Positions 7,158 through 50,784 of a DNA stretch of 64,000 nucleotides are shown here, in pieces (positions within the stretch are counted from its first letter, which is position 1; the number at the start of each line of letters is the position of its first letter). Source of the stretch: Winogradskyella sp. (GTDB lineage: Bacteria; Bacteroidota; Bacteroidia; Flavobacteriales; Flavobacteriaceae); the NCBI RefSeq assembly GCF_003712105.1, contig NZ_RHLG01000004.1, positions 124,001-188,000 of the forward strand. Direction: 5' to 3'. A program made the position numbers and the translations under genes. The notes beneath the pieces are model-generated. The model ran no database searches, was not told the DNA's origin, and saw nothing but the letters and a program-made list of their open reading frames with translations.

Positions 7158-7871
7158 ATGAAAGTCATTAAAAACAGTCTATTCATCTTTATAGCTCTTA
7201 CGTTAATCGTTTCTTGTAGTAAAGAAAAAGAAAACAACTTTATACTTAAAGGGTCTATTAAAGACTTAAAAAAAGGTGTTGTTTATTTACAAAAAGATGG
7301 GGATTCTTCTGTCATAGATTTAGACTCAGTAGTTATAAAAGGACAACCAGAATTTTTATTAAGCACGACCATCGAAGAACCTATTCTTTTATATCTAAAA
7401 CTTGAAAAAAATGATGGGCAAGAGCATTTTATCCCATTCTTTGCAGATGAAGGTGAAACTCAAATAAAAACCACATTAAAATCATTTAATACAAGCGCAG
7501 AAATTAATGGCGCTGAACAACAAAAAGTCTTAGAGGGTTATTTAACATTAATGGATGATTTCAAGAATAAGAATTTAGATTTAATAAAAGCTAATTACGA
7601 AGCCCTAAAACGTAAAGATTCTATTGCTTCAGATTCTATAGTAAAACAATCCGAACGGCTATTGCGATTAAAATACGCATCTACAATAAACTTTGCACTT
7701 AATAATAATGACAGCGAAGTTGCTCCATATTTAGCCTTATACGAAATACCAGATACCAGCATAAAATATCTCGATAGTATTTATAATAATCTTACAGACA
7801 GGATTAAAACATCTCATTACGGGAAAATTCTTGAAAAATCCATTTCTGATTTTAAGACAGAATTAAAATAA
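7158..7871 (+). CDS. DUF4369-domain lipoprotein
   Basis: 237 residues from the ATG at 7158; the upstream TTG at 7134 would place the signal peptide too far inside. A lipobox (LIVSCS) predicts cleavage and lipidation near residue 20. The FILKGSIKDLKKGVVYLQ start and the strand-rich first half are typical of DUF4369, a domain that usually precedes a thioredoxin (TlpA-like) domain in Bacteroidota. Here the C-terminal half is a helical region and there is no CxxC thioredoxin motif, so this is a short form. Probably anchored in the envelope; function unknown. Confidence 0.8.
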   Translation: MKVIKNSLFIFIALTLIVSCSKEKENNFILKGSIKDLKKGVVYLQKDGDSSVIDLDSVVIKGQPEFLLSTTIEEPILLYLKLEKNDGQEHFIPFFADEGETQIKTTLKSFNTSAEINGAEQQKVLEGYLTLMDDFKNKNLDLIKANYEALKRKDSIASDSIVKQSERLLRLKYASTINFALNNNDSEVAPYLALYEIPDTSIKYLDSIYNNLTDRIKTSHYGKILEKSISDFKTELK

Positions 7872-7942
7872 TACCACTAAACAAAAAACTCCAAATAGAC
7901 AGAACCACTTGGAGTTAGTAATTTAGAGCCGATAGAGGGACT

Positions 7943-7961
7943 CACTTCGACGACGCTCAGT
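7943..7961 (-). repeat. REP-like element, copy 1
   Basis: The minus strand reads ACTGAGCGTCGTCGAAGTG, abutting the truncated tRNA-Thr 3' end. Related sequences lie at 8060-8079, 48952-48972 and 50764-50784, all in the same orientation relative to the gene they follow. Confidence 0.7.
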
Positions 7962-8059
7962 ATTAACTTCTCGTCCCAATTAATCTCAATAAAGACATTA
8001 AAAAACTCCAAATGGATACAACCATTCGGAGTTAGTAATTTAGAGCCGATAGAGGGACT

Positions 8060-8079
8060 CACTTCGACGACGCTCAGTG
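8060..8079 (-). repeat. REP-like element, copy 2
   Basis: The minus strand reads CACTGAGCGTCGTCGAAGTG, again directly joined to a truncated tRNA-Thr 3' end (8044-8060). It is an imperfect palindrome (CACT...AGTG outer arms). Confidence 0.7.
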
Positions 8080-8116
8080 TAAACTTCTCGTCCCAATTAA
8101 TCTCAGTAAAGACAAT

Positions 8117-8150
8117 AAAAAAACTCCTAATGGAAATACCACTTGGAGTT
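8117..8150 (-). terminator. Terminator of tRNA-Thr (TGT)
   Basis: AACTCC (8122-8127) pairs with GGAGTT (8145-8150), with further pairing inside, and the minus-strand transcript then runs into a T-run (the A-run before 8122). The same hairpin recurs at 7887-7916 and 8004-8033 in the tandem copies. Confidence 0.7.
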
Positions 8151-8160
8151 ATTAATTTAG

Positions 8161-8234
8161 AGCCGATAGAGGGACTCGAACCCACGACCTGCTGATTACA
8201 AATCAGCTGCTCTAGCCAGCTGAGCTATATCGGC
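8161..8234 (-). tRNA. tRNA-Thr (TGT)
   Basis: 74-nt cloverleaf on the minus strand, with acceptor GCCGATA/TATCGGC, D-arm AGCTCAGCTGG, anticodon stem CTGAT/ATCAG with loop TTTGTAA (anticodon TGT) and T-arm GGTTCGAGTCC. CCA is not encoded. The sequence is identical to the tRNA-Thr at 29317-29390. Partial tandem copies of its 3' end follow downstream. Confidence 0.97.
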
Positions 8235-8246
8235 AAAATTGAAGCG

Positions 8247-8277
8247 CAAATTTAATCTTCTAAATCAAATTTGCAAA
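8247..8277 (-). promoter_or_regulatory. Bacteroidota-type promoter of tRNA-Thr
   Basis: On the minus strand, TTTG (8274-8277), 19 nt, then TAAATTTG (8247-8254) match the Bacteroidota -33/-7 consensus (TTTG, TAnnTTTG). The predicted start is about 10 nt before the tRNA 5' end. Confidence 0.65.
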
Positions 8278-8283
8278 TCAATA

Positions 8284-8553
8284 TTAACCTAACTTATTAA
8301 TTTTTTCGATTAGCTCACGTCCTCTAGACTCGAGTTCGTTGTTAATTGATTTAAAGTGCGCTTTTTTATCTTCAGCGCTACGGTCATTAACCTTAGCAAT
8401 TAAATCATCAAATGTTGCAATGGCTTCATCAATTATTGCATTACTTTCTTTAGTAGGCTTTTCTGCATTGGCTAATTCCCAAACATAAACTGCTTCTATA
8501 ATATCACCCAACACATAATTTATGTCTTTTTTTAAATCTCTTTTGTTTGCCAT
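8284..8553 (-). CDS. Small conserved helical protein of unknown function
   Basis: 89 residues, acidic and helical throughout (MANKRDLKKDINYVLGDIIE at the start, LESRGRELIEKINKLG at the end). No signal peptide, TM segment or metal-binding motif. I recognise it only as the type of short cytoplasmic protein common in flavobacteria. A TACTTTTG box lies 21 nt upstream of the start, so it probably has its own promoter and is separate from the manA operon behind it. Confidence 0.7.
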   Translation of the reverse strand: MANKRDLKKDINYVLGDIIEAVYVWELANAEKPTKESNAIIDEAIATFDDLIAKVNDRSAEDKKAHFKSINNELESRGRELIEKINKLG

Positions 8554-46495: not shown

Positions 46496-47194
46496 ATGGA
46501 TAAAGACCTTTTTGGAAAAGCACTTTTAGATTATTATTCTAACAATTACAGTGAAGACCTGATCACATCTACCAGTATTTCTGATGAAGATGTGTTACCG
46601 CTTCCATATTTGTTTAGACACTTTTCTGAAATGCCTAAGCTAGAACAAAAGGCTTTACATCTTTCAAAAGGAAAGGTTTTAGATGTTGGTTGTGGCTCGG
46701 GTTCTCATAGTTTGTGGTTACAAAAACAAGGCTTTGATATAAAAGCCATTGATATCTCTGAAGGTGCAGCTGAAGTTGCTAAATCTAGAGGTGTTTTAAA
46801 AGTAGAACATAAATCACTTTTAGAAGAAACAGAGACTTTTGACACCATTCTTTTACTTATGAATGGCACTGGCATCTTTCAAACCTTAGAAGATACACCT
46901 AAATACTTGAAGCATTTAAAAACATTGCTTAATCCCGATGGGCAAATCTTAATCGATTCATCAGATATTAAATACATGTATCAAGACGATGATGGTGGTT
47001 ATTGGCAAGATGTTAATACCAATTATTATGGGGAATTAGATTATTACCTTAGATACAAAGACGAAGAAGAAACACCCATAAAATGGCTCTATATCGATTT
47101 TGAAACCTTAAATATAGCTTGTGCTTCTGTAGGTCTTAATTGCGAAAAAATTAGAGATGGTGAGCATTATGATTATTTGGCTAGGTTAACCTAA
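46496..47194 (+). CDS. Class I SAM-dependent methyltransferase
   Basis: 232 residues. Rossmann motif I VLDVGCGSGSHSLWL (about 63-77) and post-I acidic IKAIDIS, plus motif II/III FDTILLLMNGTG. Substrate unknown. Cytoplasmic. Convergent with the amidohydrolase gene (6-bp gap). Confidence 0.88.
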   Translation: MDKDLFGKALLDYYSNNYSEDLITSTSISDEDVLPLPYLFRHFSEMPKLEQKALHLSKGKVLDVGCGSGSHSLWLQKQGFDIKAIDISEGAAEVAKSRGVLKVEHKSLLEETETFDTILLLMNGTGIFQTLEDTPKYLKHLKTLLNPDGQILIDSSDIKYMYQDDDGGYWQDVNTNYYGELDYYLRYKDEEETPIKWLYIDFETLNIACASVGLNCEKIRDGEHYDYLARLT

Positions 47195-47200
47195 TATTAG

Positions 47201-48817
47201 CTATTGCTTTTTGCCTGCAACATATGTACCCACAACCTTCGCCTCAGGTATATCTTTCGTATCAACAGTCATGATATCTTTATCGATAATGATAAAATCT
47301 GCAAACTTCCCAACTTCAACACTTCCTTTTTCTTGGTCTTCAAAATTTGAATATGCTGCCCAAATGGTCATACCACGCAACGCTTCTTCTCTACTCAATG
47401 CATTTTCCATCTGAAAACCTCCTTCAGGATATTGCTCCAAATCTTGTCGAGCAACAGCCGCATAAAACGTCAACATTGGGTTAACTCGTTCTACCGGGAA
47501 ATCGGTTCCTAAAGCGACTTTTCCGTATTGCTCTAATAAATCTTTAAACGCATAAGCACCTTTCATACGTTCAGCACCTACTCTATCTTCAGCCCAATAC
47601 ATATCACTAGTAGCATGTGTTGGCTGTACGGAAGGAATGATATCCTTAAATAATGCAAAATCTTCAGGAGAAATCACTTGAGCATGTTCTATTTTCCAAC
47701 GGCGATTTGGTTTACCCTGTAATACCTTTCTATAAGTGTTTAATACAGCATGATTGGCAGAATCTCCTATAGCATGTGTGTTCATCTGATATTCAGAGTT
47801 AGAAATTCGCTGAGCTGTTTCCTGAAGTGTCGCAATATCATTAACCAATAATCCAAAATGTCCTGGCTTATCACTATAAGGGTCGCGCAACATAGCTCCT
47901 CGAGAACCTAATGCCCCATCGGCATAAAATTTAAATGAGCGTACGTTTAAGAAATCTGTTTTTATAATGCCTTTATTAATAAAATAGTCTAAATTTTTGG
48001 GTGTTGCTGATGCCATGGCATAGACACGCATTTTTAAATCTCCTGTTTGGTGTAAGCTATCTATAAGGTTTATAGCTTCTATACTCAAACCTGCATCATT
48101 TACGGTTGTTAATCCTAGATCAAAGCAAACTTTTTGAGCATCGAGCAATGCTGTAATAGCTTCTTCTTTAGTAGATACAGGCCAATGGTCCATAACTAAA
48201 GATTCTGCATTATCAATTAGTACGCCTGTAAGCTTTCCATCTTCGAGTAGTAATTCGCCACCGTCTATTTTACTGCTTTCAGTCACCTTTCCTAAATCTA
48301 ATGCTGCCTGATTTGCCAAAATTGCATGACCATCAACACGAGTTAATGAAATTGGTGTATTTGGGAATAATTCATCGAGTTTAGCCTTGTTAGGAAAGGA
48401 TTTATCTTCCCAATCGTTTTGGTCCCAACCGCGACCCATAATAAAATCGAGGTTTTTTTCACCTTGAAAAGCTACAATACGCTCAATGACCTCATCATAA
48501 CTTTTGGTACCCATTAAATCCACTTGTTGTAGTCCAATCCCAAGGTTTAGAAAATGGCAATGGGCATCAATTAAACCAGGCGTAATAGTTTGTCCTTTAG
48601 CGTCAACTACATTATCTGATTTAAAACTTTCGATTATCGTTTCTGAAGTACCAACTGCAACAAACTTCCCATCTTTTATAGCAAATGCTTCTGCTTTACT
48701 AAAGCCATCATCTACGGTGTAAATATTAGCGTTAGTAACTATTAAATCGGCATGTTCTGTATTATCCTGACACGAAACAATTAGGCATAGAATTATTATA
48801 AAAAGTAAATTTTTCAT
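47201..48817 (-). CDS. Amidohydrolase family lipoprotein (YtcJ-like, amidohydrolase 3)
   Basis: 538 residues. Lipobox LIVSC near residue 16. The metal-dependent amidohydrolase fold shows DAHCHFLNLG (about 88-97), MGRGWDQNDW, HAIGDSANH, IEHAQ and GTDFPVE. Related proteins are annotated as N-substituted formamide deformylases or exoenzyme-regulatory AepA-like; the substrate is not known. Its start lies just behind the hairpin at 48855-48882. Confidence 0.88.
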   Translation of the reverse strand: MKNLLFIIILCLIVSCQDNTEHADLIVTNANIYTVDDGFSKAEAFAIKDGKFVAVGTSETIIESFKSDNVVDAKGQTITPGLIDAHCHFLNLGIGLQQVDLMGTKSYDEVIERIVAFQGEKNLDFIMGRGWDQNDWEDKSFPNKAKLDELFPNTPISLTRVDGHAILANQAALDLGKVTESSKIDGGELLLEDGKLTGVLIDNAESLVMDHWPVSTKEEAITALLDAQKVCFDLGLTTVNDAGLSIEAINLIDSLHQTGDLKMRVYAMASATPKNLDYFINKGIIKTDFLNVRSFKFYADGALGSRGAMLRDPYSDKPGHFGLLVNDIATLQETAQRISNSEYQMNTHAIGDSANHAVLNTYRKVLQGKPNRRWKIEHAQVISPEDFALFKDIIPSVQPTHATSDMYWAEDRVGAERMKGAYAFKDLLEQYGKVALGTDFPVERVNPMLTFYAAVARQDLEQYPEGGFQMENALSREEALRGMTIWAAYSNFEDQEKGSVEVGKFADFIIIDKDIMTVDTKDIPEAKVVGTYVAGKKQ

Positions 48818-48854
48818 TTGGTTTTGTTAGCTAAATTTTGAAGTATAAAAATAC

Positions 48855-48882
48855 GAAAAGCGTTCTATACAGAACGCTTTTG
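48855..48882 (-). terminator. Terminator downstream of the beta-barrel gene and its tail copy
   Basis: AAAAGCGTTCT pairs with AGAACGCTTTT around a 4-nt loop. It lies 30 bp beyond the second copy of the beta-barrel gene's 3' end, suggesting that the second copy occupies the original gene-terminator position. Confidence 0.75.
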
Positions 48883-48912
48883 AAAATTTCTAACGCTATT
48901 TAAAGATTCTGT

Positions 48913-48951
48913 TTAGAAATCGAACTGATACGTAGCACCTGCTAAAAACTG
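48913..48951 (-). pseudogene. Relic second copy of the beta-barrel gene 3' end
   Basis: The minus strand encodes QFLAGATYQFDF and a TAA, the same 12 residues that end the intact gene (49049-49011). Nine of 13 codons differ, all at third positions. Similarity stops exactly where the REP-like element begins (48952). Confidence 0.85.
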
Positions 48952-48972
48952 CACTTCGACTTTCGCTCAGTG
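48952..48972 (-). repeat. REP-like element, copy 3
   Basis: The minus strand reads CACTGAGCGAAAGTCGAAGTG, abutting the tail copy at 48951. Same type as the elements behind tRNA-Thr. Confidence 0.7.
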
Positions 48973-49010
48973 ACCAAGATTAACATTTTTATCCCACTAT
49001 ACTCAATATT

Positions 49011-50735
49011 TTAAAAATCAAATTGGTAGGTGGCTCCCGCTAAAAATTGAATGCCTTGAACTGGGAAGTTCTGCCAACGTTGATAATCTTGATTTGCGAT
49101 ATTATTTACTTTTCCAAATACAGATAAATAATCTGTTACATTATAACCAAGGTGTGCGTTAGCATCAAAAAAGCTATCCAAAGTTATCATAGTTCTTTGC
49201 GGTGGTAATAATGTTCCAAGCAATACAGATTCGTCCATGCGTTCACCTGTGAAAAATAGGCTTCCGCCCATATACCATTTTTCAGAAATTTGATAATCTA
49301 AAAATACCGAACCTGTCACATTTGGTAAGTTCCAAGCCTCTGCTTCATTATCTGTATTGTAATTAAAGTATTCGCCTTTAATAGCTAATTTAAAATTACG
49401 ATTGACGTCAATATTTAATTCACCTGCTACAGAAAATGTTTTGACATTGTCATAAACCACATTAAACGAGTTTCCAAACTGATAATCTTCAGTAGCAAAA
49501 CTTTGAGCATCATTAGCCTTAAACAATGGCTTACTTTCTTCGGCGAAATAATTACCCTTAATGTTGTAACTCACGGAATTAGAAAGTTTTCCTTTTAACC
49601 CTATAAATCCATGATATTGTTGATCTGTCGGTGTTACCAATAACGTTGGCGATACAAAAGGATTCTCATTGACAAAATCGTAATAAGAGTTTTGTATTAA
49701 ATCACCTTTAACTCCAGCATAACCAATTAAGATATCATTAACTAATCTATATGTTGCTTCTATATTTGGATAGAGAAATAACTTATTATCACTCATTTCG
49801 GTATCATTAAGATAGGTTAATTGTATACCTAAATCTACCGTTAAATCATCTTGCTTTATTTGGTAGGATGGTGCTAGACTTACATTTACATTGCCATAAT
49901 CTATACCAGAAGTTGTGATATAGTTTCGCTCAAAATTGCCACCGATATAATCTACTCTTAACTTGGTTGCAATAATTTCATCTTGAATTGGCACATCGAA
50001 TTCTGTCTTCGCCACAAAACGGTTTTCGCCTGAATCTCTATCATCTCCAAAACGTCTAAAGCGTACACTACCGTTTTTAATAATAGCATCATCAAAGTTT
50101 AACTTACCACCTACATAAAAACTATTATATCTAATCTTTGGGTCAATGGTAGCAGCTTCAGTAGGTCCAAAAAATTGCTGAGGTAAGCCATACCAATTGT
50201 AAGTCATGAGGTCTGCTCCTAAATCTAACTTCCAAGAAAAATCATTTAGCTTTTTGGAGTAATTGACATTAAGTCCCGTTTTGGAGAAATTATTATCTAA
50301 CAAGACGCCATCTATTTCACCTTGTGATGAATGATGACTAAAATAACCTCCAACATTTTCACCACTACTTAACTCATGATTTAAATACACTTCGCCTAAT
50401 ATGGTGGTGTAAGAACCAACACCTAATGATGCATAATTATCGTATAACTTTATAGGTTTAGCTTTATCTACCTTAGCAGCTCTTCCTTTTGCTGGCGTAA
50501 ACGTAGACGCCACAGGGATTGAAAAGATATTATACTTTACCTCTTTTTTCTTAATGGTATTAGCATCTTCTAAAGACGGCTTGTCTTTAATTTTGAATGC
50601 ATCAGAAATAGTAGGCGTATATGGCTTAATGACGTTTATTTTCTGGTCATCAATAGTATCTTTTGTTCGCTCTTGCGAAAACCCAAAAAAGGATACAACT
50701 AGTAGAAGTGACGTTATTTTATAATTGATGTTCAT
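49011..50735 (-). CDS. Outer-membrane beta-barrel protein (plug-less TonB-receptor-like)
   Basis: 574 residues. Signal peptide (1-20, ending FGFSQ). Residues about 21-90 are a linker; from about 95 the sequence alternates polar and hydrophobic residues in barrel strands, ending in a C-terminal aromatic strand (LAGATYQFDF) recognised by the BAM machinery. No TonB-box/plug domain is visible. It starts 73 bp after the stop of the large TPR gene, which probably makes them partners. The role is likely outer-membrane transport or assembly; the specific substrate is unknown. Confidence 0.78.
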   Translation of the reverse strand: MNINYKITSLLLVVSFFGFSQERTKDTIDDQKINVIKPYTPTISDAFKIKDKPSLEDANTIKKKEVKYNIFSIPVASTFTPAKGRAAKVDKAKPIKLYDNYASLGVGSYTTILGEVYLNHELSSGENVGGYFSHHSSQGEIDGVLLDNNFSKTGLNVNYSKKLNDFSWKLDLGADLMTYNWYGLPQQFFGPTEAATIDPKIRYNSFYVGGKLNFDDAIIKNGSVRFRRFGDDRDSGENRFVAKTEFDVPIQDEIIATKLRVDYIGGNFERNYITTSGIDYGNVNVSLAPSYQIKQDDLTVDLGIQLTYLNDTEMSDNKLFLYPNIEATYRLVNDILIGYAGVKGDLIQNSYYDFVNENPFVSPTLLVTPTDQQYHGFIGLKGKLSNSVSYNIKGNYFAEESKPLFKANDAQSFATEDYQFGNSFNVVYDNVKTFSVAGELNIDVNRNFKLAIKGEYFNYNTDNEAEAWNLPNVTGSVFLDYQISEKWYMGGSLFFTGERMDESVLLGTLLPPQRTMITLDSFFDANAHLGYNVTDYLSVFGKVNNIANQDYQRWQNFPVQGIQFLAGATYQFDF

Positions 50736-50763: not shown

Positions 50764-50784
50764 CACTGCGACTAACGCTCAGTG
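50764..50784 (-). repeat. REP-like element, copy 4 (within a larger palindromic segment)
   Basis: The minus strand reads CACTGAGCGTTAGTCGCAGTG, 25 bp behind the TPR gene stop. Flanking GGCTGAG... and ...GAAGCC extend the imperfect palindrome to about 50753-50806. Here no second copy of the TPR gene's tail is seen. Confidence 0.65.

Follow-up and report, generated by a model that had tools for sequence, protein, structure and literature searches.

Some integrative elements regenerate the 3′ end of a gene, as is the case at tRNA genes and for e14 in icd. In E. coli K-12 (NC_000913.3, positions 1286000–1288600; locus L376), tyrV has behind it three exact copies of its 3′-terminal 19 nt, spaced 178 bp apart, and one further copy of the tRNA-Tyr 3′ end lies between tyrT and tyrV; we take these 178-bp repeats to be the rttR/tpr region. 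REPs of the GTAG and CGTC families are short and often located downstream of genes, with some residing inside genes or other palindromes, and those of the CGTC family have stems of 8–9 bp and lack a dedicated transposase, according to the part of the published description available to us, which makes no mention of copied gene ends for either family (PMC3733652).

The junction described here is located in a 64,000-nt stretch of DNA (hereafter the window) whose nearest relatives are members of Winogradskyella (Flavobacteriaceae), and rather than a single gene replacement it appears to be an instance of a genome event that recurs. Genomes are designated as follows: G000 is the window's own genome, G007 is W. 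haliclonae, G021 is W. wandonensis, G012 is W. immobilis, and G023 is the MAG HKST-UBA93. On the minus strand, a 38-nt spacer separates the live end of a predicted outer-membrane β-barrel gene from a REP-like element of 21 nt, after which QFLAGATYQFDF and a stop codon occur for a second time (Table 1), such that the two tails start 98 nt apart. All elements listed in the initial annotation of this DNA were found where it had placed them, exact to the base. The predicted structure of the protein (mean pLDDT 70, pTM 0.72, a long run of strands) backs the annotation's description of the gene as a β-barrel, and the copied codons 563–574 are predicted to fall within the last strand (562–571) of the barrel. 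The protein matches no Pfam or NCBIfam family at E ≤ 0.001, and homologues are present in 249 of 299 sampled genomes of the family (E ≤ 1e-60). An Rfam search of positions 48800–49100 returned no family match up to E = 1. A diverged copy of the REP at this locus, carrying three mismatches, lies in the stretch that separates the TPR gene from the barrel gene (50764–50784, minus strand).

Table 1. Features of the window discussed in the text, with positions counted from its first nucleotide.
Feature	Position	Strand	Remarks
tRNA-Thr (tgt)	8160–8234	−	3′ end (8176–8160) copied behind REPs
tRNA-Thr unit 1, 117 nt	8060–8176	−	tRNA 3′ end, terminator-like repeat, spacer, REP (8079–8060)
tRNA-Thr unit 2, 117 nt	7943–8059	−	copied tRNA 3′ end, terminator-like repeat, spacer, REP (7962–7943)
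Third copy of tRNA-Thr 3′ end, 17 nt	7926–7942	−	followed by no REP of that type
Methyltransferase	46496–47194		further right
Amidohydrolase (PF07969)	47201–48817	−	clade-like in six consecutive blocks
Terminator-like inverted repeat and T-run	48855–48882	−	counterparts in relatives
Tail 2	48913–48951	−	second copy of last 12 codons and stop, without its own start; CAGTTTTTAGCAGGTGCTACGTATCAGTTCGATTTCTAA, encoding QFLAGATYQFDF and stop
REP-like element	48952–48972	−	CACTGAGCGAAAGTCGAAGTG; abuts tail 2 directly
Spacer, live stop to REP	48973–49010	−	38 nt
Tail 1	49011–49049	−	live last 12 codons and stop, last barrel strand; CAATTTTTAGCGGGAGCCACCTACCAATTTGATTTTTAA, encoding QFLAGATYQFDF and stop
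Live barrel gene, 574 aa	49011–50735	−	predicted outer-membrane β-barrel from structure prediction; no Pfam or NCBIfam name

The two tails differ at nine of 39 bases, which are distributed over nine of 13 codons, and every difference is a synonymous change at the third position; our recount agrees with that of the annotation. The probability that nine random substitutions would all be synonymous ranges from 4e-7 without transition bias to 1e-5 at a kappa of 4. Furthermore, the 13-residue tail peptide is matched at 13 of 13 positions by the second tail, and the best match in each of 20 shuffled windows reaches 5–6 of 13. Because the tails differ only synonymously, their divergence took place inside working genes under selection at the protein level, and the second tail is not a slippage copy, both of which the annotation had proposed. 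Two orthologous gene ends seem to be joined exactly at the REP, and the all-synonymous relic is a record of gene ends from two diverged lineages meeting.

Of 118 loci scanned, two (the window and G023) have a second tail, and a weak match at L074 sits on the other strand. Among 54 distinct downstream contexts, nearly all from Winogradskyella, the second tail matches at 36 of 39 bases in the window and at 38 of 39 in G023. The same scan recovered a decayed second tail in W. luteola that had first been seen by eye (15 of 18 bases of the tail end), and no further context exceeded 22 of 39 or 14 of 18. In these three carriers (3 of 54 contexts) the REP is joined to the CAG of the same codon, before codon 563, and the REP stretch starts 34–35 nt past the stop codon in the three carriers and 36 nt past it in G024; the REP at the barrel gene of G023 is a cluster of REPs. 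A tree built from the gene bodies places the carriers in three separate clades with noncarriers between them. Because the two well-preserved relics belong to separate clades, a single ancestral event at the barrel gene appears unlikely. Tail 1 of G023 was initially considered foreign, being only 69–72% like the tails of G001, G026, and G028, but this view was dropped when near-identical tails without a REP were found in W. algicola (97%) and BWSM122a (92%). The W. algicola tail QALIGATYQFDF (L349) matches those of BWSM122a and G023 (L343 and L344), and its gene body groups with that of G028. This mismatch between tail and body suggests that gene ends can be exchanged between species without a REP. 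Among 155 contexts of the REP core, a scan that failed to pick up G023, where a stop codon precedes the tail, found no other protein gene with a copied end joined to a REP; to date, we have found such a join in one protein gene, that of the barrel.

Across the 3.15-Mb genome, the REP pattern CACTGAGCGN{0,4}GTCGAAGTG is matched 12 times, and reading the pattern backwards gives no match. Five REP strings were folded and compared with shuffled DNA, which gave z values of −1.24 to +0.90 and no significant gain in stability. Because the REP stretches tested fold no better than shuffled DNA, ‘REP-like’ is a label only. A search for Y1 transposases (Y1_Tnp, PF01797) gave no match in G000 or G023, and of the seven genomes with the tRNA-type REP described below, only G011 and G018 have one over the cut-off. 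A target site CAGT, seen in 8 of 47 contexts, is not claimed because several of the REPs concerned sit inside a second repeat. At L170, L175, and L176, plain copies of the REP occupy the loop of an inverted repeat that resembles a terminator (for example, GGCAAC..REP..TTGCC), and a second REP type, TGTCACACTGAGCGCAGTCGAAGTG, forms tandem arrays with a spacing of about 56–100 nt at L164 (G016) and L169 (G019).

A parallel arrangement exists behind tRNA genes. The 3′ end of tRNA-Thr in the window is copied behind REPs in successive units (Table 1), and within positions 7600–8400 only the tRNA passed the Rfam gathering score, with four weaker matches below it. In the same genome, tRNA-Gln (L243, G000:C6:965673–967798) is followed by two 112-nt units, and the last copy is mutated. 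The longer, GAGAAG-type REP (GAGAAGTYTATNCTGAGC..CGAAG) occurs in 7 of 38 genomes in the search of relatives and in 45 of 299 genomes of the family. We read 43 loci with tRNA-type REPs (L259–L301), a subset of the places found, which correspond to 50 distinct contexts. A tRNA gene is present no more than 900 nt upstream in 45 of these contexts, and in 36 of the 50 the nearest upstream tRNA is copied exactly over 11 nt or more directly behind the REP, the copy starting in the T-loop, 15–18 nt before the end of the tRNA. When tRNAs of another kind were used as a control, there were no such cases in 180 comparisons, and the longest match was 8 nt. Nine tRNA kinds are concerned (Thr, Trp, Gln, Met, Gly, Arg, Leu, Asn, and Lys). 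The 14 contexts that fall below 11 nt comprise eight with diverged, truncated, or interrupted copies (second unit of L262, L263, L267, L272, L276, L284, L293, and L299), three with a tRNA-like tail for which no tRNA was found (L259 twice and L280), two at contig edges (L279 and L294), and one (L286) with neither a tRNA-like tail nor a tRNA.

On its left side, the tRNA-type REP is flanked by bases that can pair with the beginning of the copied tail, with at least four pairs in 25 of the 36 contexts and one pair in eight. This complementarity averages 4.0 pairs, compared with 1.5 after an exchange of partners among tRNA kinds (2.0 at the top of 200 swaps), and is exemplified at tRNA-Leu by GGCGAGAC with GTCTCGCC. 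Measured tRNA units are 56–125 nt long; a constant length of 112–117 nt was considered and dropped because Trp and Arg units of 56–67 nt exist. Plain tandem duplication of tail plus REP is likewise disfavored, given that the last tail is without a REP of that type in six arrays; at L299 and L300, however, a decayed one follows the last tail. Judged by eye on 10 of 24 loci, those that fitted the pattern used, the last copy at tRNA-Gln of G000 and G023 is followed by a terminator similar to those of the REP-less relatives G007, G021, G010, G006, and G013. The live 3′ end of tRNA-Gln in G000 and G023 therefore seems, from this resemblance, to be the substitute. In seven close pairs, chosen for their close copies, shared sequence ends 0–3 nt past the mature tRNA end in five and 2–3 nt past the T-run of the terminator in two. 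Tandem tRNA-type REPs were also observed in G226 (C1:1693302–1693874; six at 109 nt), G316 (C12; four at 111 nt), G337 (C1; three at 107 nt), and G232 (C30; three at 72 nt). In G038, which belongs to another family, a second tRNA-Thr 3′ end and terminator follow a different hairpin, CCCGAAAGCTTTCGGGA (L194), and this is a possible case involving another repeat. Our literature search, whose reach excluded subscription papers including those on tyrT, returned no report of this class in Flavobacteriaceae.

The barrel gene and its neighbors were compared with those of relatives. At the protein level, the TPR gene to the left is 85–87% identical to its counterparts in G007, G024, and G021 (80% for G012 and 79% for G027), the three thirds of the barrel are 86–89% identical to those of G007 and G024 (83–86% for G021), and the amidohydrolase is 83–85% identical to those of G007, G024, G021, and G027, with the same clade nearest in all six blocks. 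A tree of 50 barrel genes, constructed with the tail left out, places the window inside its clade, beside W. jejuensis and G021. The methyltransferase is nearest to G012 (75%) and G007 (74%), followed by G024 and G021 (70%), and is not clearly clade-like. In the last 240–255 nt of the barrel body, the nearest relative moves from G024 and G007 to W. jejuensis, SiteC2, and G021, and identity drops to 0.72–0.78; because of this shift and fall, a short tract from within the clade is possible in the 3′ part of the gene. Tail 1 matches G021, G012, and G007 at 32 of 36 nt, and tail 2 matches UBA3174 and G029 at 34 of 36, members of its own clade at 28–32, and tail 1 at 27. Because tail 1 agrees with the clade of the window, nothing marks it as incoming; the relic side may, if anything, be the more foreign one, at the little power that 36 nt provide. 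A YciI-like gene (the YCII domain was tested in the W. wandonensis protein) resides between the barrel gene and the terminator in G007, G024, G021, and G027. It also follows the barrel gene in W. jejuensis and SiteC2, where that terminator is absent from the stretch compared. The YciI-like gene of these six clade relatives is missing from positions 48883–49010 of the window, and the one search made of the window's genome, which had no positive control in that genome, was empty. The bases before the window's terminator, GTTAGAAATTTTC, resemble GTTAGATATTTTC of G007, and the right-hand DNA therefore looks clade-like soon after the relic.

The annotation had explained the locus by replacement of the gene body with a homologue, in which the incoming DNA ended at the REP and the old tail was left before the old terminator. 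This model is consistent with two diverged tails at one REP, with the shift in nearest relative near the end of the body, and with the finding that relatives lacking a REP at this locus can have a single tail followed by the same type of terminator (G010, G009, G004, and G030), as the annotation had anticipated. However, because the body, its left neighbor, and the amidohydrolase have the same nearest relatives, a foreign gene body is not supported by these comparisons. Likewise, the body of G023 groups with its neighbors up to the tail, and its tail 1 is common to BWSM122a and W. algicola, both without a REP. Given that body and flanks largely agree in nearest relatives and in the tree, whole-body replacement was rejected as the leading model, and we consider it quite unlikely. 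The two tails at a REP agree with the annotation's model, but the one-off event that it envisaged does not accommodate the recurrence of the join in two other species or the parallel at tRNA genes. Import on the other side, whereby the relic tail and terminator of a YciI-less relative displaced YciI and a resident REP formed the left edge, is unlikely but has more to recommend it: six relatives have YciI behind the barrel gene and the search of the window's genome returned none, the best matches of tail 2 lie in other clades, and G024 has the same REP type starting 36 nt past its stop codon, with YciI behind it and no second tail. The clade-like amidohydrolase and bases before the terminator would nevertheless require such an import to be very short, and the absence of YciI depends on the single search noted above.

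The second tail, or the unit of REP and tail, could have a function, such as 3′ end processing, that is kept by selection. The intact state of tail 2, the complementarity to the left of the tRNA-type REP, and the 17-nt copies that are intact in two Arg loci with differing right flanks would agree with a function, but copies have decayed at tRNA-Gln in G000 and G001 and in W. luteola, the barrel stretch contains no Rfam family, and only the tRNA scored above the gathering threshold at tRNA-Thr; selection for function is accordingly rated as improbable, slightly more so than body replacement. A tandem second copy of the gene that lost its body when the DNA from one REP to another was deleted would also leave a live tail, a REP, and a second tail. 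This route is very unlikely, since it requires a REP inside the second gene, where none was seen, and no tandem copy exists in the 35 same-genus genomes with a match, except for one weak, distant second match in G011. Chance resemblance or an assembly error can hardly be entertained: G023 is a draft assembly that is 78% complete, but the same join is present in three independent assemblies, and the 13 of 13 residues compare with at most six in shuffled windows.

We read the observed junction, its recurrence, its selection signature, and the tRNA class jointly, and consider it somewhat probable that an exchange or insertion at the edge of a REP joined two orthologous 3′ ends, with the barrel case being the protein-gene version of a recurring event at tRNA genes. 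On this exchange or insertion reading, one gene would be represented at the locus by two orthologous 3′ ends, a live one upstream and a dead relic downstream before the terminator, brought together with the edge of the event at the right end of the REP, inside the last codons (before codon 563). Because most of the gene body shows no foreign origin, the tract that moved would be short or would derive from a close relative. In the recurring event, a REP would come to stand right before a copied 3′ end, with a working 3′ end before the REP, and tRNA genes, entered in the T-loop, would be the usual site. Such an exchange or insertion could account for both the fixed junction point in the 3′ end and the working 3′ end that precedes it. 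An enzyme that cuts at the REP may be involved, or the REP may only offer short matches. That the barrel and tRNA junctions form by one process we infer from their shared layout only, because the barrel REP is without the left part GAGAAGTTTAT of the tRNA-type REP.

More tentatively, and with less than even confidence, we suggest that very small noncoding cassettes (about 55–125 bp) may insert at a set position within the 3′ end of genes, provide a replacement end that lets the gene survive, and retain at their far edge a REP-like recognition element, its outer arm being matched to the target gene. Their sites would be the T-loops of at least nine tRNA kinds in Flavobacteriaceae and the last strand of one outer-membrane protein in Winogradskyella, and the tyrT repeats of E. 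coli would be distantly related. If the barrel and tRNA junctions do arise by one process, then a short repeat family rebuilds gene 3′ ends repeatedly, and the tyrT repeats are one case of a much wider class. For annotation, part of the repeats behind Flavobacteriaceae tRNA genes could be read as copied gene ends.

Like REPs of the GTAG and CGTC families, the elements described here are short repeats located downstream of genes. They differ in that the five strings examined fold no better than most shuffles, in contrast to the stable palindromes of 20–40 nt expected of REPs of these families, and in that the Y1_Tnp domain expected for GTAG REPs with a RAYT was matched in neither G000 nor G023. 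The integrative elements that regenerate gene 3′ ends leave a substitute 3′ end on the live gene and a displaced native end at the far side, and these loci may resemble them in this: the direct repeat of the 3′ end is present at the barrel gene, and at tRNA-Gln the native side seems, by eye, to be distal, given the native-like terminator. However, no integrase gene or cargo is located between the copies, which start 98 nt apart at the barrel gene and are separated by units of 56–125 nt at tRNA genes, because units of this size are too short to hold them. The E. coli tyrT/tyrV copies likewise begin at the T-loop point TTCG^A behind an intact tRNA gene, and copies running from the T-loop onward were found at tRNA-Thr and tRNA-Gln of this genome and in 36 of the 50 contexts. 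In contrast, the E. coli unit is longer, holds an annotated small RNA and a small ORF, contains no REP of this sequence, and is confined to tRNA genes, with no counterpart of the protein gene seen here. By analogy, the barrel junction would work like the tyrT-type repeats without being a member of that group, because the gene concerned codes for a protein rather than a tRNA; the tyrT repeats are its nearest known relative in kind.
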